The notes below the pieces were generated by a model. The model had not been told where the DNA came from. It ran no database searches and was given only the letters and a program-made list of their open reading frames with translations. A DNA stretch of 64,000 bases from Afifella aestuarii (GTDB lineage Bacteria > Pseudomonadota > Alphaproteobacteria > Rhizobiales > Afifellaceae): assembly GCF_004023665.1 (NCBI RefSeq), contig NZ_SAUF01000002.1, positions 248,001-312,000 of the forward strand, written 5' to 3'. Positions 2,635-19,443 of this stretch are shown here, piece by piece. The translations under genes and the position numbers were made by a program. Numbering within the stretch: the stretch's first letter is position 1; every line of letters starts with the position of its first letter.

Positions 2635-2647
2635 AGGAGAGCTTACC

Positions 2648-2663
2648 CTTACGTAAACGTCAG
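2648..2663 (-). promoter_or_regulatory. near-perfect palindrome, candidate MerR-family operator
   Basis: CTTACGT-AA-ACGTCAG is a 16-bp inverted repeat with one mismatched pair, placed 14 bp before the acyl-CoA dehydrogenase start and downstream of a promoter-like pair on the minus strand (TTGTCA, then GATAAT 15 bp later). The only candidate regulator nearby is the MerR-type gene just upstream. MerR-type regulators of acyl-CoA catabolism (LiuR class) are known to bind ACGT-containing palindromes. The assignment of this site to this regulator is inference. Confidence 0.45.
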
Positions 2664-2773
2664 CTAGGTCGACCTTCCATTATCGTCTGAATTCGTCAGT
2701 GACAAGCGCCCACACACCCCTGACCCCGCGGAAATGTGCGGGTTTCTTTGCATGACGCAACGTCTTCTAAGAC

Positions 2774-3175
2774 TTACGCGGCCTCTCCGGCCTGCTTCTG
2801 CTCGTCCTGCTTCTGCGTCAGGATCTGGCGTACTGAATCCATCGTTTGAGACAATTCGTCGATCGCGTGCTCGATCTCTTCTTTCTGCCGCTTCAGGATG
2901 GCAACCTGTCCCTCGAACTTGTCGAGAGCCACCTGCATCTGCAGAACTTCGCCATCCTTCAGGTCGTAGAGATCGAGGATTTCTTTGATCTCCACCAGCG
3001 AGAAACCGACCTTCTTACCCATCAGGACGAGCTTCAGCCGTGCCCGGTCGCGCCGGGAATAGATGCGGTTCAATCCTTCGCGACGCGGGTTGAGAAGGCC
3101 CTTGTCTTCGTAAAATCGTAGGGTTCGAAGCGTCACGCCGAATTCGCGCGACAATTCACCGATGCTGTAAGTCAT
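2774..3175 (-). CDS. MerR-family transcriptional regulator
   Basis: 133-residue regulator. Residues 1-70 form the winged helix-turn-helix of the MerR family (YSIGELSREFGVTLRTLRFY, then an EDKGLLNPRR wing). Residues 75-125 are a charged helical segment that would form the dimerisation coiled coil. There is no metal-binding cysteine cluster and no effector domain, so it is not a metal-responsive MerR. The gene begins the acyl-CoA dehydrogenase/thiolase unit, with a 139-bp gap to the dehydrogenase. It most likely controls that catabolic unit, as LiuR-type regulators do in other Proteobacteria. The effector is unknown. Confidence 0.88.
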   Translation of the reverse strand: MTYSIGELSREFGVTLRTLRFYEDKGLLNPRREGLNRIYSRRDRARLKLVLMGKKVGFSLVEIKEILDLYDLKDGEVLQMQVALDKFEGQVAILKRQKEEIEHAIDELSQTMDSVRQILTQKQDEQKQAGEAA

Positions 3176-3524
3176 TCACGTCCACTTTCTGCACCCGCCG
3201 TAAGCGCCAGCTTTCCGCCGGTCGGGCGTGAGTACGTTCACTTTGATTGAGGTCGCAGTCTCTCGACCGAACAATAGCGCACGTCAATCATGAGCCTATA
3301 GGTCCAGCCTACGGGCTTCGATGAAACGTGAACGGGGCGTCGGCCGCCCCGGTTCCTTGTCAGGCTGCTTTCCCGGCTGCTCAACATGAGAAATCGTCCA
3401 AAACATGGCAGAGTTAACGTCATGTTTACCATGAGCGCCGTTAACCTTTTTCCAACCATCAGAGTGCTTCGACCTGTCGGCGTGCGAACGGTCGAGTTTT
3501 TCTCTTCTGGTCCGAGGAGACGCA
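3176..3524. other. 349-bp divergent intergenic region
   Basis: Lies between the minus-strand MerR gene and the plus-strand PodJ-like gene, so it must hold both promoters. I see a GC-rich inverted repeat near 3338-3352 (GGGGCG...CGCCCC) and an AT-richer stretch at 3400-3455 with two GTTAAC sequences. The weak open frames here have no ribosome-binding site or recognisable protein and I do not call a gene. Confidence 0.6.
3414..3430 (+). promoter_or_regulatory. CtrA-like half-site pair (TTAA-N7-TTTACC)
   Basis: TTAA, seven bases, then TTTACC: one mismatch from the CtrA consensus TTAA-N7-TTAACC of alphaproteobacteria. It is 95 bp before the start of a PodJ-like polarity gene, a gene class under cell-cycle control in Caulobacter. 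A second GTTAACC lies at 3440-3446. A single near-match can arise by chance, so confidence is modest. Confidence 0.35.
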
Positions 3525-6500
3525 ATGAAAGCCCGCACATCATGGAGAGGCAGAGCAGGATCGCCGCCGCCCGCCCCGGGTCAGGAGGGAACCGATCTGC
3601 GGGCTCTGTTGAATGCGCGCTTCGATGCGGAAGGTCGCATCATTCACGAGCCGGCCTACGCCGATTCGGAAGCTGAGCGCCTTGCCGGAGATGCCGGCGA
3701 GGGCGACATCAGCACCGAACACCTGCAGGCGGCCGTCGAAGCGCTTGCCAGACGCATAGAAGAGGCGGAGCGCGGCGAGGCTGACCGCACCTCGCAGGCC
3801 CGTAGCCGGCGTGCGCCTATCGCGCCTCCCGCCCCCGGCACGTTCGACGAGCCGGCAACGACGACCCCGCCATCCTCAGACAAGACATCGGATGCCGCCG
3901 ATGACCTCTTAAAGCGTCTCGATGCTTTCGAAAGGCACCTGGAGGAGCTCTCCCGTGGCGGCGCCGCCGACGCTGCTGGCAAGCGCAAAGCTGCCTTCGA
4001 AGAGGCGCCTGCACCGGAGCGTCGGGCGACACCTGCCGAGCCGAGCATCCAGGCACCATCGGCTCGCAAGTCCACGCCTTCAGAAAAGCCATTAGAGAAG
4101 CCCGCCGAACCACGCCGCGCATTCGCTGGCGGACTTGCTGATTTCGCCCGCGATCTCGCCAATCGTCGGCCGAAGAGCGAGGCACCAGCAGAGGCTTCGC
4201 GCGCCGAACCCGCCGATGACCGCGAGAAGAAGCCCGTCCAGGCCGATAAGAACGCCGAGGTTCTGCGCCAGATCGAGAAGCTCCAGCATGCGCTGGAAGA
4301 CGAGGTGCGTCCCTCGCGCGGCGCGCTCGCCTCGTTGCAGGAGCGCATGGGCGATGTCGATCTGCGCCTTCAGGCGCTGCATCGCAGCGTCGCCTCGGTT
4401 GCCCAGCCGCAGGGGCTTGCGGAGGAAATCGCCGCCATCCGCATCGGTCTTGCCGCGCTTCCGCAGGGCAAAGCTTTTGATGCGATCGAAGCCCGGCTCG
4501 GCGAACTCGCTGGCCGCATCGATGCGATGTCTCAACCTCACGATCGCGGTGACGAACACGAGAGTTTCGCCCGTATCGAAAGCCGGCTCGACACGCTCGC
4601 AGCCGCGATGGATGAGATCCGCGACAGCCGAATCGGCGCCATCGACGATCTTGCTGCGCAGCTCGACCGTCTCGCTGAGCGTGTTGAAGGTCTCAGTGAA
4701 AGCCGCTCCGATCTCGGAGCGATAGAGGGGCCTCTCTCCGAGCTTTCCGCGCGTATTCAGGCCGTGCCCGATACACGTCCGATGCTGACCGCGCTCGACG
4801 ACAAGCTGAGCCGCATCGCTACGAGCCTCGATGAACGCAGTGTCGACTCGTCCGATATCGAGGAAATCACCCAGCGTCTCGACCGTCTTGCGGCTGAAAT
4901 TTCAGGTTTTCTGACCGAGAGCGAAGAACGCTTCTCGCTCAAGCCCGTCCTTGATCGCCTGTCGGAAATCGATGCGCGCTTCGCCGATGAGCGGGTCGAT
5001 GTCGATCAGCTTTCCGGTCTCGTCGCCCGCATGGAAGACGCCGTTACCAGCGCCCCGATCGGTGAGCGCTTTGCGGCGCTCGAGGCCCGCATACAAGGCC
5101 TTGATCAAAAACTGCCGGATAGCGACAGCAGTCTTTTGAACGATATCGTCGATCTCCGCTCGGAAATCGCCGAGCTCAGGGCCGATATCCGCAACAGCCC
5201 GCCGACCGCCGATGCTGGCGTTCGCGTGCTGCAGCCGGCCATCCGCGAAATCAAAGAGCGTCTCGACCGGCTGCCCGAGGAGCCGGCGCGCTTCAACCGC
5301 GAGCTGGAAGCCCAGATCGGCCGCATCTCTGCGATGCTCGATCGCCCCGCAGCGGAATCGAAGGCGTTGACGCGCCTTGAAGACGCGCTCGCGGATATTC
5401 GCGAACGCCTGGATCGTCAGGAGCTGCACCACGACGCGGAAACCTGGCACGCGGCCGGCGTCGACACCGCCGAAGGGTCCGAAGCGCTGGCGCGTCTTGC
5501 CAGCGCGCTCCAGCACGATCTCGGCGAACTGAAATTCGTCGCCGAAGCGAGCGAGGAACGCACGCGAAGCTCGCTCGACGCGGTGCACGAAACGCTGGAA
5601 GCCGTCGTCAAGCGTATGGCTTTCCTCGAGCGCGACCTGCCGTTCTCAGGCGACGACAATGGCGGTTCGAGAACGCCGGCACCGCGCCCCACCCCTTCCG
5701 GCGATGACGACAGGCCGTCTGGGAAGTCTCCCTCATCGACCGCGCCGTCTGGCCCGAAGCCTGGTCCCGCGGGCCGTGCGGGCCCCGTGCAATGGTCGCC
5801 GCGGCCTCCCGCGCCGGAGCCGGAAAAGCGGGTGGAAGAAAGCACCGCCCCGGGCCTCCTGAGCCGCCTCTCCGCCACGCAATTGCTGAAGCGGGCGACA
5901 GGCGGAAGGGCGGAATCCTTCGTGCCCCGCCAGGAAGAGGAGGTGTCGCTCGACTCCCTCTTGGAGCCAGGCGGCGGTCCCTTGCATTCCGACCTCGCGG
6001 ATGCGCCGAGTTCGGCAAGCCATTACATTTCAGCGGCCCGTAAGAACCCGCCGTCTGAGACGAGCGGTTCAGAGCAGGCGCTGGCTGCGGCTTACGAGGA
6101 TTTCAGGGCTCAAAGCCGCAACAGAGAGACCTCCTCGAGCGACTTCCTGAGCGCCGCGCGTCGCGCCGCCCGTGCCGCCGCTGCGGAAGCTGCGGCCGCC
6201 GAAAGCGATGCTGGCCGCGCCAAGGGACGAGGCGGGTCGCAGATCCTCGATTTCTTCAAGGCCCGGCGCCGTCTTCTCGTCGCGGGTGCTGTCGCGCTCG
6301 CCGTCGCGTTCGCCGCGGTGCAATTCGTCAAGGTGCGAGGGGAGGAGGCCCGGACCGCGAATTCGCGTCCGGCGGTCGAGACACCGGCGCCCGCTCCGAA
6401 GGAGACCGAAGCTCCGGGCGATGGCAGCTCGATCATCCAGCCGAGCCCCGCGTCGGGCGGAGCGGTGATGGAATCCGGCAATGCCGCGCCCCTTCCGCGG

Positions 6501-7652
6501 CCCGACCGGGAAACAGCCTTTTCGACCCGTCTCTCCGCACTGCCAGGCTTGAGTGCCCAGGAGCTGACGCCGCCCGCGCGTGCGAGCGCGCCGAAGCCTG
6601 AGGCCGAACACGAGACGGCGCTCGGTCAGGCGCCGGAAGCCGCTGTCTCCTCCGCCCCGGCGGAGCCTGACGAGAACGAAATCTTCGCCGACGATGGAGC
6701 GCTGTCACAGACGGCCTCGATTACTCCGCCGCCATCCCAGCCCATCAAGACGCTTGCACCGACGGCACAAGAGCCGGCCATCTCAAATCCGTCAGGCTCT
6801 CTGCCGGCGTCGATTGGCTCCGAAAAACTTCGGCGCGCTGCAGAGACCGGCGTGACGGAGGCCCAGTTCGAAGTCGCCGTCCGGTATGCTGAAGGGCGCG
6901 GCGTGGCGAGCGATCAGGCGGCGGCGGTCTCCTGGTACGAGCGTGCGGCCCGCGGTGGGCTGGCCCCGGCGCAATATCGGCTCGGCTCGATTTACGAGAA
7001 GGGACGGGGTGTTCCCAAGGACATCGACAAGGCACTCGGCTGGTATGGCAAGGCGGCCGATGCCGGCAATGTGAAAGCCATGCACAATCTCGCCGTTCTT
7101 TACGCCGAGGGGGCGGACGGCGCTCCGGATTTGGAAAAAGCGGCCGATCTCTTCGAGCGCGCGGCCGAGCGGGGTGTGCGCGACAGCCAGTTCAATATCG
7201 CAGTTCTTTTTGCCCGGGGCCTCGGCGTCAAACAGGACCTTGTGGCCGCCTACAAATGGTTTGCCGTGGCAGCCCGCTCGGGCGACCAGCAGGCGAAAAA
7301 GCGCCAGCAGGAAATCGCCAGTGCACTGCCGCAAGATCTCCTGCCGGAGGCGAAGAAGGCCGCTGAGACTTTCAAGTCCCTGCCGATCGACCCGCAGGCC
7401 AACATGGTCTTCGCACCCGAAAGCGGATGGGGCGGACAAGCCAGCGAGAGCGTGAGCCTCAGCGGCCCCGACCTCGTGAAGCACACCCAGGGTCTTCTCG
7501 CCCAAAAGGGCTACGATCCGGGACCGGCCGACGGCATCTTCGGCAAGAAGACGCGCCAGGCAATTGCGTCGTTCCAAAAGGATAACGGCCTTTCCGTGAC
7601 CGGCAAAATCGATACCGGCGTCATTAAGGCGCTTGATGAAAAAGATATCTGA
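3525..7652 (+). CDS. PodJ-like polarity/localisation factor with Sel1 repeats and peptidoglycan-binding domain
   Basis: 1375-residue protein. Residues 1 to about 900 are acidic, proline/alanine-rich and strongly helical, with long heptad-like stretches (many RLDRL and EIAELRA segments), consistent with a cytoplasmic coiled-coil scaffold. One transmembrane segment lies at about 916-936, after a basic RRR. The periplasmic part has an Ala/Pro-rich linker, four Sel1-like repeats at about 1099-1255 (e.g. AEGRGVASDQAAAVSWYERA), and a peptidoglycan_binding_1 domain at about 1317-1375. This is the architecture of the PodJ/PodJL localisation factors that mark a cell pole. The ATG follows GAGGAG. A CtrA-like site lies upstream. 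Exact orthology to Caulobacter PodJ is inferred from architecture only. Confidence 0.85.
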   Translation: MKARTSWRGRAGSPPPAPGQEGTDLRALLNARFDAEGRIIHEPAYADSEAERLAGDAGEGDISTEHLQAAVEALARRIEEAERGEADRTSQARSRRAPIAPPAPGTFDEPATTTPPSSDKTSDAADDLLKRLDAFERHLEELSRGGAADAAGKRKAAFEEAPAPERRATPAEPSIQAPSARKSTPSEKPLEKPAEPRRAFAGGLADFARDLANRRPKSEAPAEASRAEPADDREKKPVQADKNAEVLRQIEKLQHALEDEVRPSRGALASLQERMGDVDLRLQALHRSVASVAQPQGLAEEIAAIRIGLAALPQGKAFDAIEARLGELAGRIDAMSQPHDRGDEHESFARIESRLDTLAAAMDEIRDSRIGAIDDLAAQLDRLAERVEGLSESRSDLGAIEGPLSELSARIQAVPDTRPMLTALDDKLSRIATSLDERSVDSSDIEEITQRLDRLAAEISGFLTESEERFSLKPVLDRLSEIDARFADERVDVDQLSGLVARMEDAVTSAPIGERFAALEARIQGLDQKLPDSDSSLLNDIVDLRSEIAELRADIRNSPPTADAGVRVLQPAIREIKERLDRLPEEPARFNRELEAQIGRISAMLDRPAAESKALTRLEDALADIRERLDRQELHHDAETWHAAGVDTAEGSEALARLASALQHDLGELKFVAEASEERTRSSLDAVHETLEAVVKRMAFLERDLPFSGDDNGGSRTPAPRPTPSGDDDRPSGKSPSSTAPSGPKPGPAGRAGPVQWSPRPPAPEPEKRVEESTAPGLLSRLSATQLLKRATGGRAESFVPRQEEEVSLDSLLEPGGGPLHSDLADAPSSASHYISAARKNPPSETSGSEQALAAAYEDFRAQSRNRETSSSDFLSAARRAARAAAAEAAAAESDAGRAKGRGGSQILDFFKARRRLLVAGAVALAVAFAAVQFVKVRGEEARTANSRPAVETPAPAPKETEAPGDGSSIIQPSPASGGAVMESGNAAPLPRPDRETAFSTRLSALPGLSAQELTPPARASAPKPEAEHETALGQAPEAAVSSAPAEPDENEIFADDGALSQTASITPPPSQPIKTLAPTAQEPAISNPSGSLPASIGSEKLRRAAETGVTEAQFEVAVRYAEGRGVASDQAAAVSWYERAARGGLAPAQYRLGSIYEKGRGVPKDIDKALGWYGKAADAGNVKAMHNLAVLYAEGADGAPDLEKAADLFERAAERGVRDSQFNIAVLFARGLGVKQDLVAAYKWFAVAARSGDQQAKKRQQEIASALPQDLLPEAKKAAETFKSLPIDPQANMVFAPESGWGGQASESVSLSGPDLVKHTQGLLAQKGYDPGPADGIFGKKTRQAIASFQKDNGLSVTGKIDTGVIKALDEKDI

Positions 7653-7741
7653 ACCACCGTCTTGCACTTCGTGAAGCGGCGGTGTTGAAGAGATCGGCCT
7701 AGACCGAGCGAATTTCGCCGATAGCGACAGGACCGTCCTGC

Positions 7742-8668
7742 GTGCAGCTCTATCTCCCGATCGCTGAACTGACGGTCAACATCTTCGTCTATCTCGGAAT
7801 GGGAGCGGCGGTCGGCTTCATTTCGGGCATGTTCGGCGTTGGCGGCGGCTTTCTGCTGACGCCGCTTTTGATCTTTTCCGGCATCAGTCCCGCCGTCGCC
7901 GTGGCGACCGTAACGCCTCAGATCGTTGCCTCGTCCACGTCGGCTGCGATCTCCTATTGGCGTCGGCGGATGATCGACCCGCAGATGACGATGTTTCTCA
8001 TCGTCGGCGGCGTCACCGGCTCATGGCTCGGCGTGCGGGTCTTCACCATGCTGCGTTCGCTGGGCCAGCTCGATGTCATCATCTCGCTGTCCTACGTCAC
8101 CTTTCTGGGGCTGATCGGCGGCCTCATGCTGCGTGAGGCGCTGCGTTCCTTTCTGCGCGCACGGCGCGGCCGCCCATCCAATCTGCGCCGAGGCCGCCAC
8201 CACAATTGGCTGCTCGGCCTGCCGTTCAAGGTCCGCTTCCGCCGCTCCAAACTCTATGTGAGCGTCATCCCGGTGATCCTGCTTGGCCTGTCGATCGGCT
8301 TTCTCGGCACCGTCCTTGGCATAGGTGGCGGCTTCATTATGGTGCCGGCGCTCATTTACCTTCTGCGCGTGCCGAGCAACGTCGTCATCGGCACCTCTCT
8401 CGGCTACATCCTCTTCACGATGGCACTCGCCACGGTGCTGCATTCGTTGGAGAACGGCGCCGTCGATTTGATGCTGGCCTGTCTCTTGATCGTCGGCGGT
8501 GTCGTCGGTGCACAGTTCGGGGCTCAGATCGGTCAGGCCATGCGCGGCGACCAGCTGCGTCTTTTCTTAGCGCTTCTGGTGCTGGCGGTGGCACTCCGCT
8601 TCCTGTTGAACCTGTTCCTGCCGCCTGCGAGCCTTTATTCGATCGCCCTTCTGCAGGGGATCGGATGA
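7742..8668 (+). CDS. TSUP-family (TauE/SafE) anion exporter
   Basis: 308-residue inner-membrane protein of the sulfite exporter TauE/SafE family, predicted to move sulfur-containing or organic anions. The family duplication is visible as two glycine-rich repeats, GMFGVGGGFLLTPLL near residue 30 and TVLGIGGGFIMVPAL near residue 190, in a protein of about eight membrane segments. A basic cytoplasmic loop (RARRGRPSNLRRGRHH) separates the halves. The likely start is GTG at 7742. Its stop overlaps the ATG of the next gene, a TIGR02186 protein, a pairing that suggests a joint function. Substrate unknown. Confidence 0.9.
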   Translation: MQLYLPIAELTVNIFVYLGMGAAVGFISGMFGVGGGFLLTPLLIFSGISPAVAVATVTPQIVASSTSAAISYWRRRMIDPQMTMFLIVGGVTGSWLGVRVFTMLRSLGQLDVIISLSYVTFLGLIGGLMLREALRSFLRARRGRPSNLRRGRHHNWLLGLPFKVRFRRSKLYVSVIPVILLGLSIGFLGTVLGIGGGFIMVPALIYLLRVPSNVVIGTSLGYILFTMALATVLHSLENGAVDLMLACLLIVGGVVGAQFGAQIGQAMRGDQLRLFLALLVLAVALRFLLNLFLPPASLYSIALLQGIG

Positions 8669-9426
8669 TGCGGTTCCTGCTCGCTCTCGCCCTTTTTTCC
8701 GGTCTCCTCGTCTGCGGCCCGGCTTCAGCGGAGAAGCTCGTCTCCACCCTGTCCGATGATGCCGTCGAGATCACCTCCAACTTCACAGGCTCCAACATCA
8801 CGGTCTTCGGTGCGGTGGAAGGCGCGAAATCGGCCTCCGGCGAGCGCGATTATGAGGTTGCGATCGTCGTGGCGGGTCCGCAGATGCCCCTCGTCGTGCG
8901 CCGCAAGGGGCAGGTCGCCAGGATCTGGATCAACACGGCCTCTCGGGAATTCTACAATGTCCCGAGTTTCTACGTCATCCATATGAGCGAGAACTTGAAC
9001 GATGCGGCGAGCCAGCAGCTCTTGGCGCGCTACAAGCTGGATTTCGCCGATCTCGGCTTCTCGCGCGACGCAAGTTACACGCCGCAGGACGAGGCCTTCG
9101 CAAAGGCACTGGTGGAGCTGAAGAAACAGAAGGAGCTCTTCGTCAAGCGCGGCGATGCGGTCACCTTCCTTGCCCCCAATGTCTTTCGCACCACCTTCCA
9201 TTTGCCGTCCGCGATCCCCGTCGGCACCTACCACGTCTCCGTCTTCCTCTTTCGCAACGAAGAGCTGGTGGCGGCGGAAGTGCAAAGCCTGCTCGTCGAG
9301 AAGAGCGGCTTTTCAGACCGTATCGCGCGTTTTTCGACGGAGCAGCCGCTGCTCTACGGTCTTTTCGCCGTCATGGTGGCCGTCTTTACCGGCTGGATGG
9401 CCGGCATCATCTTCCGCCGCAACTGA
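8665..9426 (+). CDS. TIGR02186-family membrane-anchored protein
   Basis: 253 residues with an N-terminal signal sequence (cleavage after about Ala-Ser-Ala near residue 22), a periplasmic beta-rich domain, and one C-terminal transmembrane helix ending in FRRN. The start ATG overlaps the stop of the TSUP exporter (ATGATG with TGA inside), so the two are probably translationally coupled. The protein matches the conserved TIGR02186 family, found beside TSUP genes in alphaproteobacteria. Its function is unknown; a periplasmic accessory to the exporter is a reasonable inference. Confidence 0.87.
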   Translation: MMRFLLALALFSGLLVCGPASAEKLVSTLSDDAVEITSNFTGSNITVFGAVEGAKSASGERDYEVAIVVAGPQMPLVVRRKGQVARIWINTASREFYNVPSFYVIHMSENLNDAASQQLLARYKLDFADLGFSRDASYTPQDEAFAKALVELKKQKELFVKRGDAVTFLAPNVFRTTFHLPSAIPVGTYHVSVFLFRNEELVAAEVQSLLVEKSGFSDRIARFSTEQPLLYGLFAVMVAVFTGWMAGIIFRRN

Positions 9427-9544
9427 GTATCCTTGAAGCCCTATAAGGCTGGTCCGGAGCCATATCAGATGGTGGGAAAGGGCCGGCAACGGCGAGAGCG
9501 ACGAGGCATCTTGCGCCGCTCCACCGTCTTGGCCTTGTCGGGCC

Positions 9545-11101
9545 CTATTCGGCAGGTGTGGCCGACGCAGGAGCCTCTTCCTCATCCGCCTCGCTGCTGG
9601 TCGGTGCCGGCACTGGCACAGAGGGGTTTGCGCCTCTCTCAGTGGACGCAGCGCTGTTATCGTCCGCTGTCCCCTCTATCGCCGCGTTCCCTGCGGCCGG
9701 AGGGGAGTCTGAGGCGGGTGAACCCGCCGCCTCACTCGTATCCGTCTCGTCGACGCTTGTTTCAGGCCGTGGCTTGGCCGCGCCATTCGGTGCGGCCGTC
9801 GCCGGTGTCTCGGCGCCCGCGGCAGCTGCACTGGCCTCGCTTTGTCCGCTTTCCGAATCCTTTGACGCGCCGGGGGCATTGGCCAGCCTTGTCGGTTCCT
9901 GGGCGTTGAAAAAGGCGGCGACGGCTTTCATCTCGTCAGGCTCCAGCTGATGAGCGAGCTCGTCCATCGGCCCGTAATCCCCGGCGTAGCCGCGCGCACC
10001 TTTCGCGAAGAGCTTCAGCTGGCTTTCGATGTAATTGGCGTATTGGCCATTGAGGTGCGGGAACAGGCGCGAGGTGAACTTCGTCTGCTCGTGGCACGAC
10101 AGACAGGCGGGCACGTTGCGTTCCGGCACGCCGTTCTCTGCGATCGATCGGCCTTCGTCGATAAGTGCCGCATCGAGCGCCTCGGAGCCTGGCGAGCGGG
10201 TTTCCGGTAGCATGGAATAATAGGCTGAAAGCGCCATGATCTGATTGTCGCTGAGCTGGGTGGCGACGGAACGCATGAAGCCGCTGTGGCGGTCACCGTG
10301 CGCAAAGGCTTCGAGTGTCCGGCGCAGATATTCCGGGTTTTGCAGCGTCAGATTGGGAAATGCTCCGATGCCCCGTCCGAGCCCGTCGGCGCCATGGCAG
10401 CGTCCACACATCGACATCAGCGTGTTGTTCATGGCGAACTCGGTGAAGCCCGTTGCGGGTACGCTTGTGCGATGGGTATTCGGATCGGGGGTCTTTGTCT
10501 TGGAGCTTTCGGACGTCGGTTCAAACTGGGTGAACTTCGCCGGAAGGCTCAGGTTCGTGATCTCGCCTTCCGTGCCGTAGGCGAGCTTGCGGTAGGTTTT
10601 GTAATCCATCTCCGGCAGCCGCCGCAGGAACGCCGCGACGGACCACGCTTCATCATCTCGATCGGTGTCGGTCCAAGAGGGCATGCCGGTGTATTTCGCG
10701 CCGTGAAGGACGATCCAGGCGAGCTCTTTATCGGAAAATTCGCCGACCACCTCCGGCAGATATTGCGGCTGCGGCCGCTCCTGCAGCGCCATGACGTTCT
10801 GCCCGAGCCCCGGCGCTCCATGGCAGCCGGCGCAAGCGTGACCGTAATGGCCGGCGCCCTGAACGACGCGCCATTCGGTATCGAAATCGTCAGGTCGGGA
10901 AAGCTCGCTCGCATGCTGGGCGACGGAGCGTTCGAAGCTGAAATGCAGAAGCTGCGCCCAGCCGGGCGGATGGGGGATCGACGCCGCGATGTTGTACATT
11001 CCGGTGACGACGGCGATGCCCGCAACGACGACGAATGCGATGCCAGTCGACACGATCGGACCGAACCAGCCGAGTATGCCGTGCGGGAAAAAGCGTCTCA
11101 T
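9545..11101 (-). CDS. membrane-anchored tri-haem cytochrome c with low-complexity tail
   Basis: 518 residues from the ATG at 11101, which follows an AGGGGAC site. An open frame runs further upstream, but that part lacks a ribosome site. One N-terminal membrane helix (about 11-35) anchors it. Three haem c motifs are visible: CAGCH at 90-94, CGRCH at 232-236 and CLSCH at 333-337, each followed by a cytochrome c fold with a distal Met (e.g. GMPSW). Such multi-domain cytochromes carry electrons from periplasmic dehydrogenases. After residue 405 the protein is a tail of more than 100 residues rich in Ala, Ser, Pro and Glu, which is unusual. It is convergent with the TIGR02186 gene. Partner enzyme unknown. 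Confidence 0.88.
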   Translation of the reverse strand: MRRFFPHGILGWFGPIVSTGIAFVVVAGIAVVTGMYNIAASIPHPPGWAQLLHFSFERSVAQHASELSRPDDFDTEWRVVQGAGHYGHACAGCHGAPGLGQNVMALQERPQPQYLPEVVGEFSDKELAWIVLHGAKYTGMPSWTDTDRDDEAWSVAAFLRRLPEMDYKTYRKLAYGTEGEITNLSLPAKFTQFEPTSESSKTKTPDPNTHRTSVPATGFTEFAMNNTLMSMCGRCHGADGLGRGIGAFPNLTLQNPEYLRRTLEAFAHGDRHSGFMRSVATQLSDNQIMALSAYYSMLPETRSPGSEALDAALIDEGRSIAENGVPERNVPACLSCHEQTKFTSRLFPHLNGQYANYIESQLKLFAKGARGYAGDYGPMDELAHQLEPDEMKAVAAFFNAQEPTRLANAPGASKDSESGQSEASAAAAGAETPATAAPNGAAKPRPETSVDETDTSEAAGSPASDSPPAAGNAAIEGTADDNSAASTERGANPSVPVPAPTSSEADEEEAPASATPAE

Positions 11102-11260
11102 AAGTTGTCCCCTGATCCTCTTGTGATCCTGAATCGGGGTGCTGAACACGCGAATGTGAATGAAGTTCATTATCGTGGTCCGGCGGACCCGGAACGCATC
11201 GTCGCAGCTGTGTCTCGGTGCTTCGGGCTGAGGGTTGCCGAGGCTAGCGAGAAAGCCTGC

Positions 11261-11980
11261 TCAATCTGGCCTGAGAGACGCCGGCGCGACGGGATAGAGC
11301 CGGTCGGCTCCGACCAGGAAGGCGATGAAACCGCGCCTGGCGAAGAGGCCGGCAAAGGCGCGGTCGAGGACGTTGAGCCCGCCGGTTAGGACGCCGAACG
11401 AGGGCAGGATGAGCCGCGTGCCGTCTGTGACGAAGGCGCGCCGGCGCACGCTGCGTCCGCGCCGGGCAATTTTCCCGCATGGGTGAAGATGTCCAGCGAT
11501 CTCCCCTTGAGCCATCGCGTCTTCCGGCTCGTGTCGGAAGGCGAGGCCATTGATCGAAAGCTCCGCGAGACACTCGCCGCCAAGGCCGGGGGGAGGGGCC
11601 GGATCATGATTGCCGGCGATCCAGATCCAGTCGCGTCCCGCCTGCAGCGCTGCGATCTTGCCGCGGTCGATCTCGGCGAGGCGCTCGGGCCCGCCGCCAT
11701 CGTGAAAACTGTCGCCGAGGCAGATGACGGTTTTCGGCTTGCGCCGCAGGATCAGGTTGTGAAGGGCGGCAAGGGTCGCGGCGCTGTCATATGGCGGCAG
11801 GAATGTGCGCCTGCGACCGAAGGACGACGCCTTTTCCAGATGCAGGTCGGCGACGACCAGCATGCGTGAGGCCGGGTCCCAAAGCGCCCCGGAAACATCG
11901 AGCACCAGCTCTCGCCCCGAAAGCGCGATACGCGTCTCAGGCAAGATCTCGTCTCTGTAAGAAGTCTCCGCCAGCGCCAA
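11261..11980 (-). CDS. pdeM: ligase-associated metallophosphoesterase
   Basis: 239-residue calcineurin-like phosphoesterase of the ligase-associated DNA-damage-response class (MPE/PdeM). The metal-binding motifs are DLH at 45-47, GDSFHDGG at about 89-96, GNHD at 123-126 and GHLH at 163-166. It belongs with the Lhr-Core helicase, MBL exonuclease and ATP-dependent ligase found around it, a four-gene nucleic-acid repair cluster described in bacteria. Its first 44 nt overlap the end of the helicase gene, so it is almost certainly translated from the same message. Substrate not defined by sequence. Confidence 0.92.
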   Translation of the reverse strand: MALAETSYRDEILPETRIALSGRELVLDVSGALWDPASRMLVVADLHLEKASSFGRRRTFLPPYDSAATLAALHNLILRRKPKTVICLGDSFHDGGGPERLAEIDRGKIAALQAGRDWIWIAGNHDPAPPPGLGGECLAELSINGLAFRHEPEDAMAQGEIAGHLHPCGKIARRGRSVRRRAFVTDGTRLILPSFGVLTGGLNVLDRAFAGLFARRGFIAFLVGADRLYPVAPASLRPD

Positions 11981-14528
11981 AATCTGCCTCGCTGCCCATA
12001 GCCTCGCGCATTAGCTCCTCGGAGGCTTCGACCAGAAGATCCTCCTGCGCCTCGCCGAAGACCGGCTCCCGGCCGATTTCCAGCATGGCCGGGATGGCAA
12101 GCGGTGAGACATGCGCCAGCCTTTGATGCACGATTCGCCCCTGGATGCGCGACAGCATTTCGCCGAGGCGGCGGATGTCGAGAAGGCCGGTCGCGGCATC
12201 CGCACGCGTGGCCTTGAGAAGAATATGGTCGGGCTCGTGGCTGCGCAGCACGTCATAGATGAGGTCGGTGGAAATCGTCACCTGTCGCCCGCTCTTCTCT
12301 TCGCCGGGATGCCGACGCTCGATCAGTCCGGCTATGATGGCGCAATTGCGGAAGCTGCGTTTGAGGAGATAACTCTCTGCCAGCCACTCCTCCAGATCGT
12401 CGCCCAGCATGTCTTCATCGAAGAGCTCTGCAAGCGAAGGTTTGCCGGTGGCAAAGAGGGCGCCCATGTCGCGCAGCCCCCACACCGCGAGCGCATAATC
12501 GTTGGCGACGAAGCCGAGCGGCCGGGCGCGCGCGCGCTCCAGCCGGCGCGTCAACAGCATGCCGAGCGTCTGATGTGCGAGCCTTCCTTCGAAGGGATAG
12601 GCGACCATGTAGAATTTCGTCTCGCGCGGAAAGGTCTCCACGAGAAGCGAGTCTTTCGACGGCAGCACCGAGACCTCGCGCTGGATGGAGAGCCAGTCGC
12701 GCACCTGCCCCGGCAGCTTCTCCCAATGGGCGGGATCGGCGAGCATCGCCCGTACGCCGGCGGCAAGATAGGTGCTCAAAGGGAATTTGCCGCCGGCATA
12801 GGAAGGGATCGCCGGGTCGTTGGCCTCGGCCCGTGTGACGAGCGCCTCGTTTTCGTGAATGCCGACGAAAGCGAGAACCTGGCCGGCGAACTGAAACGTG
12901 TCGCCTGGAACGAGTTGCTCCAGAAAATACTCTTCGATCTTGCCGAGGACGCGTCCCCCGCGCAGCACGGTGCCGGGGCGGCCGTCCTTCCCGCCACGTC
13001 GGGAGGCGAGGCGCACATTGAGCATCGGCGCTTCGACGATGGTGCCGAGATTGAGACGGTATTGCTGGGCGAGCTTCGGATGCGAAAGCGCCCACAGCCC
13101 GTCCTTGCGGCGCCGGATCTTGGCGTAGCGCTCGTAACTTCTGAGCGCATACCCACCGGTCGCGACGAAATCGACCGCCTGCTCGAAATCCTCATAGCTG
13201 AGGCCACGATAGCTTTCGGCTGAACGAACCTCCTCATAGAGGCTTTCAAGGTCGAACGGGGCGGCGACGGCCATGCCGAGAATATGCTGGCATAAGACGT
13301 CGAGCGCGCCGGGTCTGAGCGGCGGTGTATCCTGAATGCCGGCTTCATTGGCTTCGAGTGCCGCCTGGCATTCCATGACCTCAAAGCGGTTCGACGGCAC
13401 GAGGAGACCGCGCGAAGGCTCGTCCATCCGGTGGTTGGCGCGGCCGATCCGTTGGGCAAGACGGCTCGCGCCTTTCGGCGCGCCGACATGAATGACGAGG
13501 TCGACATCGCCCCAGTCGATGCCGAGATCGAGCGTTGAGGTGGCAACGACCGCGCGCAGAGCGCCCGCTGCCATCGCCGCCTCCACCTTGCGGCGCTGAC
13601 CGCGGTCGAGCGAGCCGTGGTGCAGCGCGATTGGAAGTGCCTCCTCGTTGATGCGCCAGAGCTCGGAGAACAGCATCTCCGCCTGCCAGCGCGTGTTGAC
13701 GAAGACGAGCGTCATGCGATGGCTTTGGATCGCCTCGAGAACCTCAGGCAGCGCATAGCGCGCCGTGTGTCCCGACCAGGGGATGCGCGCGTCAGAATGC
13801 AGGATCGAAATCTCCGGAGGCGCGCCTTCGCCGACCACCACCATCTCGGCGAGATTTCGGCTCGCGTTGGAATTCTGTTCGACGAGCCAGGCACGCAAAT
13901 CGTCGGGAAAGGCGACGGTGGCGGAGAGGCCGATCGTCCTGAGGCCCGGTGCGAGCCGGCGCAGCCGTGCAAGCCCGAGCGCCAAAAGGTCGCCGCGCTT
14001 TGAAGGGGTCAAAGAGTGTAATTCGTCGAAGACGACTGTCGACAGGCGCGCGAAGAAGCGCTCCGCATCGCGTGAGGCGATCAAAAGCGCGACCTGCTCC
14101 GGCGTCGTCAGAAGGATGTCGGGAGGGCTGAGTTTCTGCCGCTGTCGCTTATGGGTGGGTGTATCGCCGGTGCGCGTTTCCACCGTCAGGGGCAGCCCCA
14201 TCTCGGCGACCGGCATGCCGAGATTGCGCTCGATGTCGACGGCGAGCGCCTTCAAAGGCGAGACATAAAGGGTGTGCGGACCGATGAAATGTGATGAATT
14301 GCGCCTGTCGTGCGCTTGCGAAAGCTCGATGAGTGAGGGCAGAAAGCCCGCGAGCGTCTTGCCAGCGCCGGTCGGAGCGATCAAAAGCGACGAGGATCCC
14401 GCCCGTGCTTGGGCGATGAGCTTGAGCTGATGGGGGCGCGGTGCCCAGCCCCGGTCGGCGAACCATTGCTGGAAACGCTCCGGCAGGAGCCCGTTTTCGC
14501 CAATGGGGATCGCAGCGGGTGCCGTCAT
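11937..14528 (-). CDS. ligase-associated Lhr-Core DEXH-box helicase
   Basis: 863-residue superfamily 2 helicase, the core part of Lhr that pairs with a DNA ligase cluster. Motif I is APTGAGKT at 51-58, motif II DELH at 168-171, motif III SATVAF, and motif VI QRIGRANHR; beyond this come the winged-helix and Lhr-specific domains. Lhr-Core enzymes are 3'-5' translocases that unwind DNA and RNA:DNA hybrids. I chose the ATG at 14528 because the family starts just before the Q-motif region; an open frame to 14738 runs into the divergent gene. It is followed by the overlapping metallophosphoesterase gene. Confidence 0.93.
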   Translation of the reverse strand: MTAPAAIPIGENGLLPERFQQWFADRGWAPRPHQLKLIAQARAGSSSLLIAPTGAGKTLAGFLPSLIELSQAHDRRNSSHFIGPHTLYVSPLKALAVDIERNLGMPVAEMGLPLTVETRTGDTPTHKRQRQKLSPPDILLTTPEQVALLIASRDAERFFARLSTVVFDELHSLTPSKRGDLLALGLARLRRLAPGLRTIGLSATVAFPDDLRAWLVEQNSNASRNLAEMVVVGEGAPPEISILHSDARIPWSGHTARYALPEVLEAIQSHRMTLVFVNTRWQAEMLFSELWRINEEALPIALHHGSLDRGQRRKVEAAMAAGALRAVVATSTLDLGIDWGDVDLVIHVGAPKGASRLAQRIGRANHRMDEPSRGLLVPSNRFEVMECQAALEANEAGIQDTPPLRPGALDVLCQHILGMAVAAPFDLESLYEEVRSAESYRGLSYEDFEQAVDFVATGGYALRSYERYAKIRRRKDGLWALSHPKLAQQYRLNLGTIVEAPMLNVRLASRRGGKDGRPGTVLRGGRVLGKIEEYFLEQLVPGDTFQFAGQVLAFVGIHENEALVTRAEANDPAIPSYAGGKFPLSTYLAAGVRAMLADPAHWEKLPGQVRDWLSIQREVSVLPSKDSLLVETFPRETKFYMVAYPFEGRLAHQTLGMLLTRRLERARARPLGFVANDYALAVWGLRDMGALFATGKPSLAELFDEDMLGDDLEEWLAESYLLKRSFRNCAIIAGLIERRHPGEEKSGRQVTISTDLIYDVLRSHEPDHILLKATRADAATGLLDIRRLGEMLSRIQGRIVHQRLAHVSPLAIPAMLEIGREPVFGEAQEDLLVEASEELMREAMGSEADFGAGGDFLQRRDLA

Positions 14529-14641
14529 GACGATGAGTTTAGGCTTGGTTGCGGCCAAGTCGAGCGGACCTGACGTTGCGTCGCGTCCCCCGCGGCGTCG
14601 AAAAGTTCCACAATGCCAAGATGCGGCTGCCGGGGGGAGGC

Positions 14642-15145
14642 ATGGCCAAGAAGAAGAAGGGCAGCAAGAAGAAGGACGAGGAGAACCTCGCCACGATTGC
14701 TGTCGACATGGACGTGCACAAGCGGATCGAAGGTGCACGCGAAGATTTTGAGGAGACGCAGAACGCCATCCTCCGTCGCCTGCTCGGCCTCGACGGCCGC
14801 AGAGGAGGGGGTGCGGCTGCGGAAGAAAGCCTCGGCGAACGTGCGCGCCGCGCCAAGGGCGGCGGTGCCAAGGAGGGCGGCTGGTCGAAGATCGGCCGTC
14901 ACGGTCACGAGGTGTTTTTGCCGAACGGGACGACCTTGAGAGCTGCCTATGCCGGCCAGACGGTGGAAGGTCTCATCGTCGACGGCCACTGGGTCGTGAA
15001 CGGCACGAGCTACAATTCTCCCTCCGCCGCGCTCATCGCGCATGTGCGCACCCGCGACGGCAAGAAGGTCAATCTCAATGGCTGGCGTATCTGGGAGGTG
15101 CGGCGGCCCGAGGACGACCGCTGGCTGCGGCTCGGCGAGATTTAG
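14642..15145 (+). CDS. small protein with RHH (SeqA-N-like) and RAMA-like domains
   Basis: 167 residues from an ATG preceded by GGGGGAGGC. Residues 1-15 are a Lys-rich tail. Residues 17-51 read ATIAVDMDVHKRIE...ILRRLLGL, which resembles the ribbon-helix-helix N-terminal domain of SeqA-type proteins. Residues 52-85 are a basic Gly-rich linker. Residues about 88-155 carry a glycine turn, NSPSAALIAHV at 125-135 and NGWRIWEV at 146-153, the pattern of the RAMA (restriction enzyme adenine methylase associated) domain. The combination suggests a DNA-binding protein that may read base modification. It sits between the Lhr-Core helicase (divergent) and the repair exonuclease (same strand, 104 bp away). 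Domain calls are by eye. Confidence 0.75.
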   Translation: MAKKKKGSKKKDEENLATIAVDMDVHKRIEGAREDFEETQNAILRRLLGLDGRRGGGAAAEESLGERARRAKGGGAKEGGWSKIGRHGHEVFLPNGTTLRAAYAGQTVEGLIVDGHWVVNGTSYNSPSAALIAHVRTRDGKKVNLNGWRIWEVRRPEDDRWLRLGEI

Positions 15146-15249
15146 GGCCAAGGCCCGAAAGCTCCGCCGCGGCGTGCCGGTGACATGGGCGTTCCGTTGA
15201 CATGCAACGGCGACATGGAAAAGCCGGCCCGTGCCACTATCTCGGGACG

Positions 15250-16260
15250 ATGCGCCCGACCGAACTTCTGTGCACGACGCCGAAAGGCCTTTATTGCCCG
15301 CCAGGCGATTTCTACATCGATCCGACGCGCCCGGTGCCACGCGCGCTCATCACCCACGGCCATGCCGACCATGCGCGTGCCGGCCATGGCGCGGTGATGG
15401 CGACGTCGCAGACGTTGAAGATCATGGCCGCCCGATATGGGCCGGACTTCGCGGCCTCCACTCAGGACGCGAAGCTTGGCGAAACGCTCGCCATCAATGG
15501 CGCCTCCGTCAGCTTTCATCCGGCCGGCCATGTGCTCGGATCGGCGCAGATCGCGGTGGAAAAGGACGGCTTCCGCATCGTCGCCTCGGGCGATTACAAA
15601 CGCCGCAAGGATCCGACCTGTGCCGCCTTCGAGCCGGTCGCCTGCGATGTCTTTATCACCGAGGCGACCTTTGCCCTGCCGGTTTTCTGCCATCCAGATG
15701 ATCGCGGTGAGATCGCCAAGCTCATTCACTCGACGCAGGTTTTCCCCGAGCGCACTCATCTCGTCGGCGCCTATGCGCTCGGCAAGGCGCAGCGCGTCAT
15801 CGGCCTGCTTCGTGAGGCCGGATACGACCGCACGATCTATATTCACGGTGCTTTGAAGGGGCTGTGCGATCTCTATCGCGAGGAGGGGGTCGACCTCGGT
15901 CCGCTCGCGCCGGCAACCGTGGACAATGCGCGCAAGGGCGAGTTCGCCGGTGCCATCGTCGTCTGCCCGCCCTCGGCGTTTTCCGATCGCTGGGCGCGCC
16001 GCTTTCCCGATCCTCTCGCCTGTTTCGCGTCAGGCTGGATGATAATCCGCCAGCGAGCCCGACAGCGCGGGGTGGAACTGCCGCTCGTCATTTCCGACCA
16101 TTGCGATTGGGGAGAGCTCTTGCAGACGATCGGAGAAATTGCGCCCGGCGAAGTGTGGATCACGCATGGCCGCGACGACGCGCTGTTGCGCTGGTGCGAG
16201 CTCAACGGCGTTGCTGCCCGCCCGCTGCATCTTGCAGGCTACGAGGACGAACCCGATTGA
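15250..16260 (+). CDS. ligase-associated DNA repair exonuclease (metallo-beta-lactamase fold)
   Basis: 336 residues. The HxHxDH metal site is HGHADH at 36-41, followed by HPAGHVLGSAQI and SGDYKRR, the hallmarks of MBL-fold nucleases of the beta-CASP/SNM1 type. In the four-gene ligase cluster this enzyme (Exo) is a manganese-dependent DNA nuclease. The ATG at 15250 was chosen because MRPTELLCTTPKGLYCP is the family start; a frame upstream to 15202 adds a non-conserved leader. The helicase and metallophosphoesterase are divergent and the ligase lies 1.1 kb downstream beyond two minus-strand genes. Confidence 0.92.
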   Translation: MRPTELLCTTPKGLYCPPGDFYIDPTRPVPRALITHGHADHARAGHGAVMATSQTLKIMAARYGPDFAASTQDAKLGETLAINGASVSFHPAGHVLGSAQIAVEKDGFRIVASGDYKRRKDPTCAAFEPVACDVFITEATFALPVFCHPDDRGEIAKLIHSTQVFPERTHLVGAYALGKAQRVIGLLREAGYDRTIYIHGALKGLCDLYREEGVDLGPLAPATVDNARKGEFAGAIVVCPPSAFSDRWARRFPDPLACFASGWMIIRQRARQRGVELPLVISDHCDWGELLQTIGEIAPGEVWITHGRDDALLRWCELNGVAARPLHLAGYEDEPD

Positions 16261-17353: not shown

Positions 17354-18982
17354 ATGCAGGCCTTTGCCGCCCTCCTCGATCGTCTCACTCTGACGCCGCA
17401 GCGCAACGGCAAGATCAGGCTTCTGGTCGATTATCTGCGCCAGGTGAAAGATCCTGACCGCGGTTACGCCATCGCGGCAATCACCGGAGATCTCGACATC
17501 GTCTCGGTCAAGCCGGCGATGGTGCGCGCTCTGGTGGAGGAGCGGGTCGATCCCGTCCTGTTTGCGCTTTCCTATGATTATGTCGGCGACCTGGCTGAGA
17601 CCGTCTCGCTGATCTGGCCGGGTGAAAACGATGTCGGCGCGGCGTTGCATCTCGCCGAGGTGGTGGAGCGGCTCAGGGGCGCATCCCGTCTCGAAGGGCC
17701 GAAGCTCGTCGCTGGCTGGCTCGACGAACTCGATCCGAGCGGGCGTTACGCGCTTTTGAAGCTCATCACCGGCGGGCTCAGGATTGGCGTGACGGCCCGC
17801 CTCGCGCGCCAGGCCCTGGCGGAATTCGGTGACTGCCCGGCAACCGAGATCGAGGAGATGTGGCATGGCCTGAAGCCGCCCTACGTCGATCTCTTCGCCT
17901 TTCTGGAAGGGCGAGGAGAGAGACCGCAATCGAAGCAGAAGGCTCCCTTCCGGCCGGTCATGCTGGCGAGTGCCATCCAGGATGAGGATTTCCCGAAGCT
18001 CGATGCGACAGATTATGCGGCCGAGTGGAAATGGGACGGGATTCGCATCCAGGCAGCGGCTTCAGGTGGAGAACGCCGGCTTTATTCCCGCACCGGCGAT
18101 GACATCTCCGGCGCATTTCCCGACGTTTTGGAGCAAATGGAATTCGACGGCGCGATCGACGGCGAGCTGCTGGTGGCGCGCGAAGGGGAAGGGGGAATGG
18201 CCATCGCATCCTTTTCGGATTTGCAGCAGCGCCTCAACCGCAAGCGCGTGACGGCGAAGATGCTCAAGGATTATCCCGCCTTCATCCGGGCTTACGATCT
18301 CCTGCAAGAGGGGGATGAAGATCTCCGCCCGCTTGCCTTCGCAGAACGACGGCGGCGGCTTGAGGATTTCATCGCTCGCTTGTCCTCGCCGCGCATCGAT
18401 ATTTCTCCCCTCGTCGACTTCGGCGATTGGGACGAGCTTGCGCATCTTCGGGCCAACCCGCCCGCCGAGGGCCGCCTCGATGAAATCGCCGAAGGCCTGA
18501 TGCTGAAGCGCTGGGACACCGCCTATGTGGCCGGGCGACCGAAAGGCCCTTGGTTCAAATGGAAGCGTGACCCCTTCCTGGTCGATGCCGTGCTCATGTA
18601 TGCCCAGCGCGGCCACGGCCGCCGCTCCTCGTTTTATTCCGATTACACCTTTGGCGTCTGGACCGCGGAGAAAGCCGAGGATGGAGAACTTGTCCCCGTC
18701 GGCAAGGCCTATTTCGGTTTCACGGACGAGGAGCTGAAGGAGCTCGACCGGTTCGTGCGCAACAATACGGTCGATCGCTTCGGCCCGGTACGGGCCGTGA
18801 GGGCTGGGCCTGACGCCGGTCTCGTTCTTGAGGTGGCCTTTGAGGGGCTGGCTCGTTCGAGTCGCCACAAATCCGGGGTCGCCATGCGCTTTCCACGCAT
18901 CAGCCGGATCAGATGGGACAAGCCTGCAGCGGAGGCGGATCGTCTCGATGACCTGGAAAAACTTCTGCCGCAGCAGGTATAA
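17354..18982 (+). CDS. ATP-dependent DNA ligase of the Lhr/Exo/MPE repair cluster
   Basis: 542 residues. An N-terminal DNA-binding domain covers about residues 1-190. The nucleotidyltransferase motifs follow: motif I EWKWDGIRI with the AMP-accepting Lys at 226, RLYSRTGDDIS, motif III DGELLV, motif IV EGLMLKR and motif V WFKWKRDP; the C-terminus is an OB fold. This is the stand-alone ATP ligase associated with the helicase, exonuclease and phosphoesterase above, linked in annotation to cisplatin damage response. I chose the ATG at 17354, where family similarity begins, although its ribosome site is weak; an open frame continues upstream to 17225. Confidence 0.92.
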   Translation: MQAFAALLDRLTLTPQRNGKIRLLVDYLRQVKDPDRGYAIAAITGDLDIVSVKPAMVRALVEERVDPVLFALSYDYVGDLAETVSLIWPGENDVGAALHLAEVVERLRGASRLEGPKLVAGWLDELDPSGRYALLKLITGGLRIGVTARLARQALAEFGDCPATEIEEMWHGLKPPYVDLFAFLEGRGERPQSKQKAPFRPVMLASAIQDEDFPKLDATDYAAEWKWDGIRIQAAASGGERRLYSRTGDDISGAFPDVLEQMEFDGAIDGELLVAREGEGGMAIASFSDLQQRLNRKRVTAKMLKDYPAFIRAYDLLQEGDEDLRPLAFAERRRRLEDFIARLSSPRIDISPLVDFGDWDELAHLRANPPAEGRLDEIAEGLMLKRWDTAYVAGRPKGPWFKWKRDPFLVDAVLMYAQRGHGRRSSFYSDYTFGVWTAEKAEDGELVPVGKAYFGFTDEELKELDRFVRNNTVDRFGPVRAVRAGPDAGLVLEVAFEGLARSSRHKSGVAMRFPRISRIRWDKPAAEADRLDDLEKLLPQQV

Positions 18983-19348: not shown

Positions 19349-19443
19349 ATCCAGCGGTCGTGTCGCCGATAAGGAAGGGCGCTTGGAACATATTATGAAC
19401 TTCTGTAGTGGTTTCGCGGCCGACCGATTGCTGTATGGCTTAG

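Follow-up and report, generated by a model that had tools for sequence, protein, structure and literature searches.

The window analysed here, a 64-kb stretch of DNA, contains at 14642-15145 a plus-strand open reading frame of 167 amino acids plus stop, whose product we call P0001. Its neighbours make up a ligase-associated damage-response set, recognized by curated NCBIfam models that are all over cut-off. The genes and features of the locus are as follows.

11261..11980, minus strand: PdeM/MPE metallophosphoesterase (TIGR04123 over cut-off)
11937..14528, minus strand: ligase-associated Lhr-core helicase (DEXH) (TIGR04121 over cut-off; start read as ATG 14528)
14529..14641, no strand: intergenic region between the divergent Lhr-core and SeqA_N-RAMA genes, without a LexA-like box
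14642..15145, plus strand: SeqA_N-RAMA gene, 167 aa (open ORF, Pfam domains, dN/dS 0.06-0.24)
14642..14689, plus strand: Lys-rich N-terminal tail, residues 1-16, predicted disordered (pLDDT mostly <50; net charge +4)
14693..14794, plus strand: SeqA_N-like ribbon-helix-helix (RHH), residues 18-51 (PF17206; helices 23-31 and 40-47; 1xrx match)
14795..14875, plus strand: basic linker, residues 52-78, ending RAKxGGAxx (net charge +3)
14876..15142, plus strand: RAMA domain, residues 79-167, with SPS at 126-128 and NGWxxW at 146-151 (PF18755; MPND/CcrM structure match)
15250..16260, plus strand: ligase-associated exonuclease, Exo (TIGR04122 over cut-off; start read as ATG 15250)
17354..18982, plus strand: ATP-dependent DNA ligase, Lig (TIGR04120 over cut-off; start read as ATG 17354)

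The reading frame at 14642-15145 is a real gene. Its dN/dS is 0.06-0.24 (six pairs, five same-genus genomes), and it is therefore coding, with purifying selection acting on the 167-aa protein. A purine-rich stretch lies immediately 5' of the ATG at 14642. Control of the gene by the SOS response was considered and rejected, because the sequence between 13881 and 17725 contains no GTTC-N7-GTTC, the LexA-like box of Alphaproteobacteria, even when one mismatch is allowed. An exact GTTC-N7-GTTC is present at 19386-19400, just upstream of an ORF at 19444 that looks MATE-like by eye and is reminiscent of the SOS-controlled dinF; the number of matches across the whole window is not above chance.

P0001 very probably combines a SeqA_N-like module with a RAMA domain. 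As a single sequence it gave no match in PHROGs or NCBIfam and nothing credible in the PDB. Pfam lists only SeqA_N (PF17206, residues 18-51, E 0.0039, 16.9 bits; cut-off 23) and RAMA (PF18755, residues 96-153, E 1.4e-4, 22.2 bits; cut-off 35.2), and no methyltransferase catalytic domain was found. P0001 alone is thus below the curated cut-offs for both domains. Two members of the family reach the SeqA_N cut-off of 23 bits (G365 with 23.9 and G412 with 23.0), and no tested small RHH-RAMA protein reaches the RAMA cut-off, the best scoring 33.3 bits. Membership of SeqA by the SeqA_N module is therefore seen for the family by profile, but not for P0001 by the curated cut-off. The preliminary description had noted a basic linker between the two domains, and residues 52-78 do carry a net charge of +3. 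The motif at the end of this linker, RAKxGGAxx, is found in all seven Afifella-family sequences and is absent from the other aligned members.

Profile searches place the N-terminal module with SeqA. When profile A2, built from 11 relatives, was compared with the PDB (177,635 distinct sequences), SeqA was both the first and the second match (1xrx, E 8e-4; 3fmt, E 1.5e-3) and the RAMA of MPND was the third (E 0.26). With profile A6, built from 15 relatives, 1xrx rose to E 6e-5 in the same search, and MPND was absent from the matches up to E 5. The preliminary description had called the N-terminus a SeqA-N-like RHH and proposed a comparison with SeqA_N profiles; Pfam, the A2 and A6 searches and a structural match to 1xrx all agree with that call, with SeqA at the head of the search. 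Profile A2 also matched 61 of 398 genomes of the phylum, and many of these matches were N-terminal-only, in ORFs of about 180-260 aa. We read 18 N-terminal-only loci on the plus strand; 7 gave a full ORF there, and all 7 encode full SeqA (PF17206 plus PF03925 in Pfam). P0001 and SeqA share an N-terminal TIE[V/I]D...ILRRLL module followed by a linker and a C-terminal DNA-binding domain. However, that last domain is PF03925 in SeqA and RAMA in P0001, where PF03925 gave no match in Pfam at E up to 1.

The strand of the RHH suggests what the module might do. Going by RHH structures, three of its positions are exposed. Among 29 correctly located rows (33 sequences, excluding the G424 row, which fell on the wrong stretch, and three sequences without a row), the third position is Asp in all 29, the second is acidic in 22, and Lys or Arg occurs at none of the three in any row. 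The strand of SeqA, TIEVD, likewise has an acidic exposed face, as in the SeqA oligomerization domain. The acidic exposed strand therefore favours multimerization over base reading, and the RHH of P0001 would more likely multimerize than read DNA. SeqA-type filaments appear doubtful here because the Ala found in 1xrx (ESASD), at a position presumably important in SeqA filaments, is replaced: the 3fmt construct has Arg (ESRSD), and the proteins described here have Gln, Arg, Pro, His, Glu or Tyr.

The C-terminal assignment draws on a structure model as well as on Pfam. The AlphaFold2 model of P0001 has a mean pLDDT of 72 and a pTM of 0.49, with values of 70-91 in ten-residue blocks of the RAMA and 78-83 in the RHH; it has helices at 23-31 and 40-47 and a C-terminal domain that is mostly beta. 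VIA re-alignment of 999 chains put three RAMA structures on top: MPND (7ydt, Z 6.2), MPND with DNA (7ydw, Z 6.1) and CcrM (6pbd_B, residues 270-349, Z 5.2). The N-terminal module of SeqA (1xrx) was aligned over 34 residues with Z 3.0 and 32% identity. The level for a clear VIA match is Z 8 and the best here is 6.2, so membership of the RAMA fold, judged from the model, is moderately indicated. The RAMA domain announced in the preliminary description is accordingly recovered twice, by PF18755 and by MPND and CcrM leading the structural re-alignment. Foldseek against the PDB gave no match at E 0.001 or better, with SeqA at probabilities of 0.82 (3fmt) and 0.77 (1xrx) at E 1.8-1.9, and Foldseek against viral models gave no useful match.

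At the level of residues, N146, G147, W148 and W151 of P0001 align with Asn330, Gly331, Trp332 and Trp335 of CcrM, so that NGWxxW is common to both. S126 would be the equivalent of CcrM Ser315, a pairing made by hand alignment only. Aligned with hhalign, profile A6 and the C-terminus of the host's own CcrM gave a probability of 53.5 over 47 columns, and BLASTP of a Rhizobium plasmid protein against this same C-terminus aligned the NGWxFW stretch no more than weakly. P0001 differs from CcrM in having neither a methyltransferase domain nor a counterpart of Arg350; the protein ends before that position, where 5 of the 7 other aligned members keep a C-terminal LR or MR. Its best structural match, the RAMA of mouse MPND, differs in that it belongs to a fusion with an MPN domain and has a link to nucleosomes. 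The PADLOC candidate PDC-S14 matches P0001 over 158-261 of its 280 positions (P0001 residues 46-159, E 1.4e-7), whereas the first half of its profile is unmatched.

Published work on these two relatives indicates what a RAMA can do. In CcrM, one subunit's C-terminal domain is reported to hold the non-target strand by its phosphates; the domain is similar to SAND and has been termed a nonspecific DNA-binding domain (PMC6787082). Its conserved phosphate-binding residues are reported to be required for strand separation (PMC10359602). The RAMA of MPND is described as binding dsDNA and not ssDNA, with no preference for sequence or 6mA; the same source cites an earlier study that reported 6mA selectivity of RAMA, so reports differ (PMC9963953).

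The position of the gene is conserved within one family of purple bacteria. Profile A1 found it in 7 of 11 Afifella-family genomes. In all seven carriers, which cover three genera, it lies between a divergent Lhr-core and a co-directional Exo, and the proteins are 52-97% identical (97% for relative G001). Two genomes of a single genus, G007 and G010, have Lhr, Exo and PdeM without the gene, and there Lhr and Exo are directly divergent. In G005 the stretch that was read contains Exo but no Lhr, and G008 gave no Exo match. Loss of the gene in one genus would be the simpler account, because the Lhr tree places G006, which has the gene, beside G007 and G010 (90/98) and places G009 beside Afifella (89/88), supports that are moderate; the Exo tree does not resolve gene loss.

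Elsewhere in the order the picture is different. Outside the Afifella family we read 27 of 42 over-cut-off Exo genes, and none of the 27 loci has a SeqA_N-RAMA gene within about 1.5 kb of Exo. The preliminary description named co-occurrence with the repair genes in other genomes as a check. Co-occurrence stands for the seven carriers in the Afifella family, but wider conservation of the neighbourhood was not found at the loci read outside it, and we rejected the idea of a general partner of the repair cluster; the gene is a conserved component of the cluster within one family and, judging by the 27 other Exo loci, not across clades. Lhr is divergent from Exo in 8 of the 27 loci, with gaps below 150 bp in four and larger gaps in the other four, three of which (L161, L165 and L173) hold other ORFs. 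Position is weak evidence of function because the Lhr-Exo slot takes other genes elsewhere. In L173 the gap contains, at 2480-3300, what looks by eye like a BrnT/BrnA-like toxin-antitoxin pair.

Distant matches were examined from the other direction, in 46 loci (some contigs being represented twice). One of them, L048 from genome G295, has PdeM and Lhr, and none has Exo or Lig nearby. Homologues of TauE and PyrD, which belong to the window's wider neighbourhood, occur in L050 (G075); a helicase is weakly matched in L122, and TauE is weakly matched in L123. In L048, at 4202-11182, a RAMA ORF lies between PdeM-Lhr and DUF6460; by eye its N-terminus is not SeqA_N, its place in the tree is unsure, and the slice of the protein tested gave no match in Pfam. 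Exo and Lig gave no match on this contig, and 14 other genomes of the same family gave no match to the RAMA gene.

Small RHH-RAMA proteins occur sporadically in Alphaproteobacteria and on phage contigs and plasmids, including one betaproteobacterial plasmid. A single-sequence search matched 7 of 61 relatives, and a single-sequence scan of genome contigs found only 3 Afifella loci. Profile A1 matched 14 of 397 genomes in the order; seven belong to the Afifella family, and only G167, G218 and G365 among the other seven cover both halves of the protein. Profile A2 matched 26 of 385 genomes in the class, partial matches included. Matches were found in 5 of 72,556 plasmid records, one of which, from the betaproteobacterium Variovorax, matches over 80% of the query, and in 1 of 50,697 phage records. 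IMG/VR scans gave further loci, partly on the same contigs. Pfam, run with E limits of 1, 0.1 and 0.01 on 16 other proteins (15 from matches outside the Afifella family plus the G295 slice), found both domains in 7, RAMA in 11 and SeqA_N in 8. Four plasmid-type members (L046, L051, L053 and L142) have RAMA and no SeqA_N match in Pfam, and their N-terminal assignment rests on alignment. The protein of Rhizobium phage X2_26 (at E 0.01) and that of G424 gave neither domain; the former counts as a family member on the strength of tblastn (E 7e-4) and the tree.

In the tree, the seven proteins of the Afifella family group in a single clade (support 99/95). At all seven loci the GC content of the gene is within 1.3 points of that of the locus, and at all ten other chromosomal loci measured it is below that of the locus, by 0.7 (G1032) to 15.8 points. 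With this host-like base composition the gene appears domesticated in the Afifella family, and elsewhere it looks recently acquired. One phage member, L116, has primase/VapE genes on one side and terminase genes on the other. The neighbour in G365 is a UvrD helicase, and in G772 the gene is close to ParB and to a weak HEPN match.

We tentatively postulate, at somewhat short of even confidence, that P0001 is a domesticated duplex-DNA clamp of SeqA architecture, possibly an accessory factor for the neighbouring repair enzymes. The SeqA_N-like RHH would pair two, perhaps more, chains, and each chain would add a RAMA, tethered by a flexible basic linker, that holds double-stranded DNA by its phosphate backbone. 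With a RAMA on each of two chains, the dimer could therefore clamp or bridge DNA. The family occurs on phages and plasmids, and one copy would have been domesticated between Lhr-core and Exo in the Afifella family, where the accessory factor might serve the helicase and the co-directional exonuclease by holding or marking duplex DNA. The parts of this proposal differ in strength. The reading frame, its two domains, the gene order, the selection and the spread of the family are established by computation, whereas dimerization, DNA binding, the connection with repair and any methylation sensing are inferred. Binding of P0001 to duplex DNA is likely, and multimerization equally so. A functional link to the repair genes is conceivable but falls on the doubtful side, and methylation sensing by P0001 seems unlikely. 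Among the readings considered, we rank the accessory duplex-DNA clamp first, an unrelated domesticated DNA-binding protein second and a methyl reader third.

In the second of these readings, P0001 is a domesticated nucleoid-type protein of phage or plasmid origin that binds the chromosome and occupies a permissive intergenic slot, unconnected with the repair enzymes. We consider this rather less probable than the accessory clamp, although several findings fit it: the relatives on phages and plasmids, the low GC of the gene in other hosts, the other genes that occupy the same Lhr-Exo slot elsewhere, and the lack of the gene at 27 of 27 order-level Exo loci. However, the position has been kept over three genera at 52-97% identity, and dN/dS within the genus is 0.06-0.24, which both argue against a passive occupant.

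The third reading, a SeqA-type modification reader, would have a pair of RAMA domains sense (hemi)methylated adenine, for example at the GANTC sites of CcrM, and direct repair or re-methylation. The SeqA architecture fits, and the CcrM-like protein of the host itself ends in a RAMA. Some relatives also lie beside adenine methyltransferase genes. On phage contig L139 an N6_N4_Mtase gene follows the SeqA_N-RAMA gene after 47 bp, and the near-identical L138 has the same layout. In Rhizobium phage X2_26 the family gene follows a Dam-type gene, and on the Rhizobium 007 plasmid it and a type I methylase gene point away from each other. The methyltransferase-neighbour pattern is suggestive, not conclusive. 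A PF01555 search, which is unbiased but blind to other methylase classes, found a match somewhere in 12 of 25 records, one of them about 5 kb away (G1102 = L141), and directly adjacent in only two (G1100 = L138, and G167). Earlier tblastn queries (the X2_26 Dam and the plasmid type I M) came from the loci themselves, so their self-matches are not independent. We discounted a methylase partnership in G167, since the split methylase gene there looks like an interruption: in L045, at 8087-9686, the minus-strand SeqA_N-RAMA gene sits between two parts of a plus-strand N6_N4_Mtase gene. GANTC occurs 0 times at 14401-15400 and 68 times in the 64-kb window, which is uninformative either way.

Weighing against a modification reader, the contacts of the CcrM RAMA are reported to be to phosphates, and crystals with hemimethylated DNA showed no difference (PMC6787082); MPND binding was unaltered by 6mA (PMC9963953). 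PF01555 is adjacent in only 2 of 25 records, one with a split gene. We therefore regard this reading as improbable. A broader form of it, which we hold to be more improbable still, is that SeqA has its alphaproteobacterial counterpart in SeqA_N-RAMA proteins, which would form oligomers, read or protect (hemi)methylated adenine, and be wired in the Afifella family to helicase-nuclease-ligase repair. If it were true, the sites read would be GANTC in cells and phage-specific sites in phages, and repair in the Afifella family could be strand- or age-aware.

It is quite doubtful that P0001 is an RHH transcription factor controlling the divergent promoters of Lhr and of RAMA-Exo. The gene does lie at a divergent promoter, and the region upstream of it shows partial conservation among five genomes of the genus. 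However, RHH transcription factors have basic or polar strand residues that contact bases, and in the 29 rows the strand that would enter the major groove carries neither Lys nor Arg at its exposed positions and is mostly acidic; a DNA-reading RHH repressor was set low for this reason. It is least likely of all that P0001 stands in, in trans, for a RAMA and strengthens CcrM or a methyltransferase that has none of its own, as the L139 methyltransferase adjoining SeqA_N-RAMA might suggest (265 aa, PF01555, no RAMA match), since the host's CcrM-like protein has its own RAMA and no methyltransferase is among the scanned cluster genes.

We found no description in the open-access literature of a SeqA_N-like module fused to RAMA, and the family is apparently new. 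Although CcrM methylates DNA in Alphaproteobacteria, the SeqA_N Pfam model matched only 1 of 289 of their genomes (G412, E 0.001, at a SeqA_N-RAMA gene), in a search that was positive for the E. coli control but strict enough to miss P0001, so that a diverged SeqA could escape it. Since one short protein brings together SeqA-like multimerization and CcrM-type DNA-binding modules, it offers a direct test of methylation sensing by RAMA, and also of whether the Lhr/Exo/Lig/MPE pathway, in which the gene is embedded here, has a DNA-positioning factor.

Some other proteins resemble parts of P0001. Four loci (L125-L128, from G456, G681, G691 and G482) encode related RHH proteins with an apparently divergent RAMA C-terminus; the L126 protein gave no Pfam match. 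The L139 contig carries, at 5980-9409 and in this order, SeqA_N-RAMA, an N6_N4_Mtase without RAMA, a DUF6511 protein and a C5 methylase. In L050 (G075) a stand-alone SeqA_N-like ORF of 78 aa lies at 9286-9522, between homologues of PyrD and TauE. In L049 (G026), at 1742-2302, a weak SeqA_N match (E 0.031) is joined to another C-terminal region in a protein of 186 aa.
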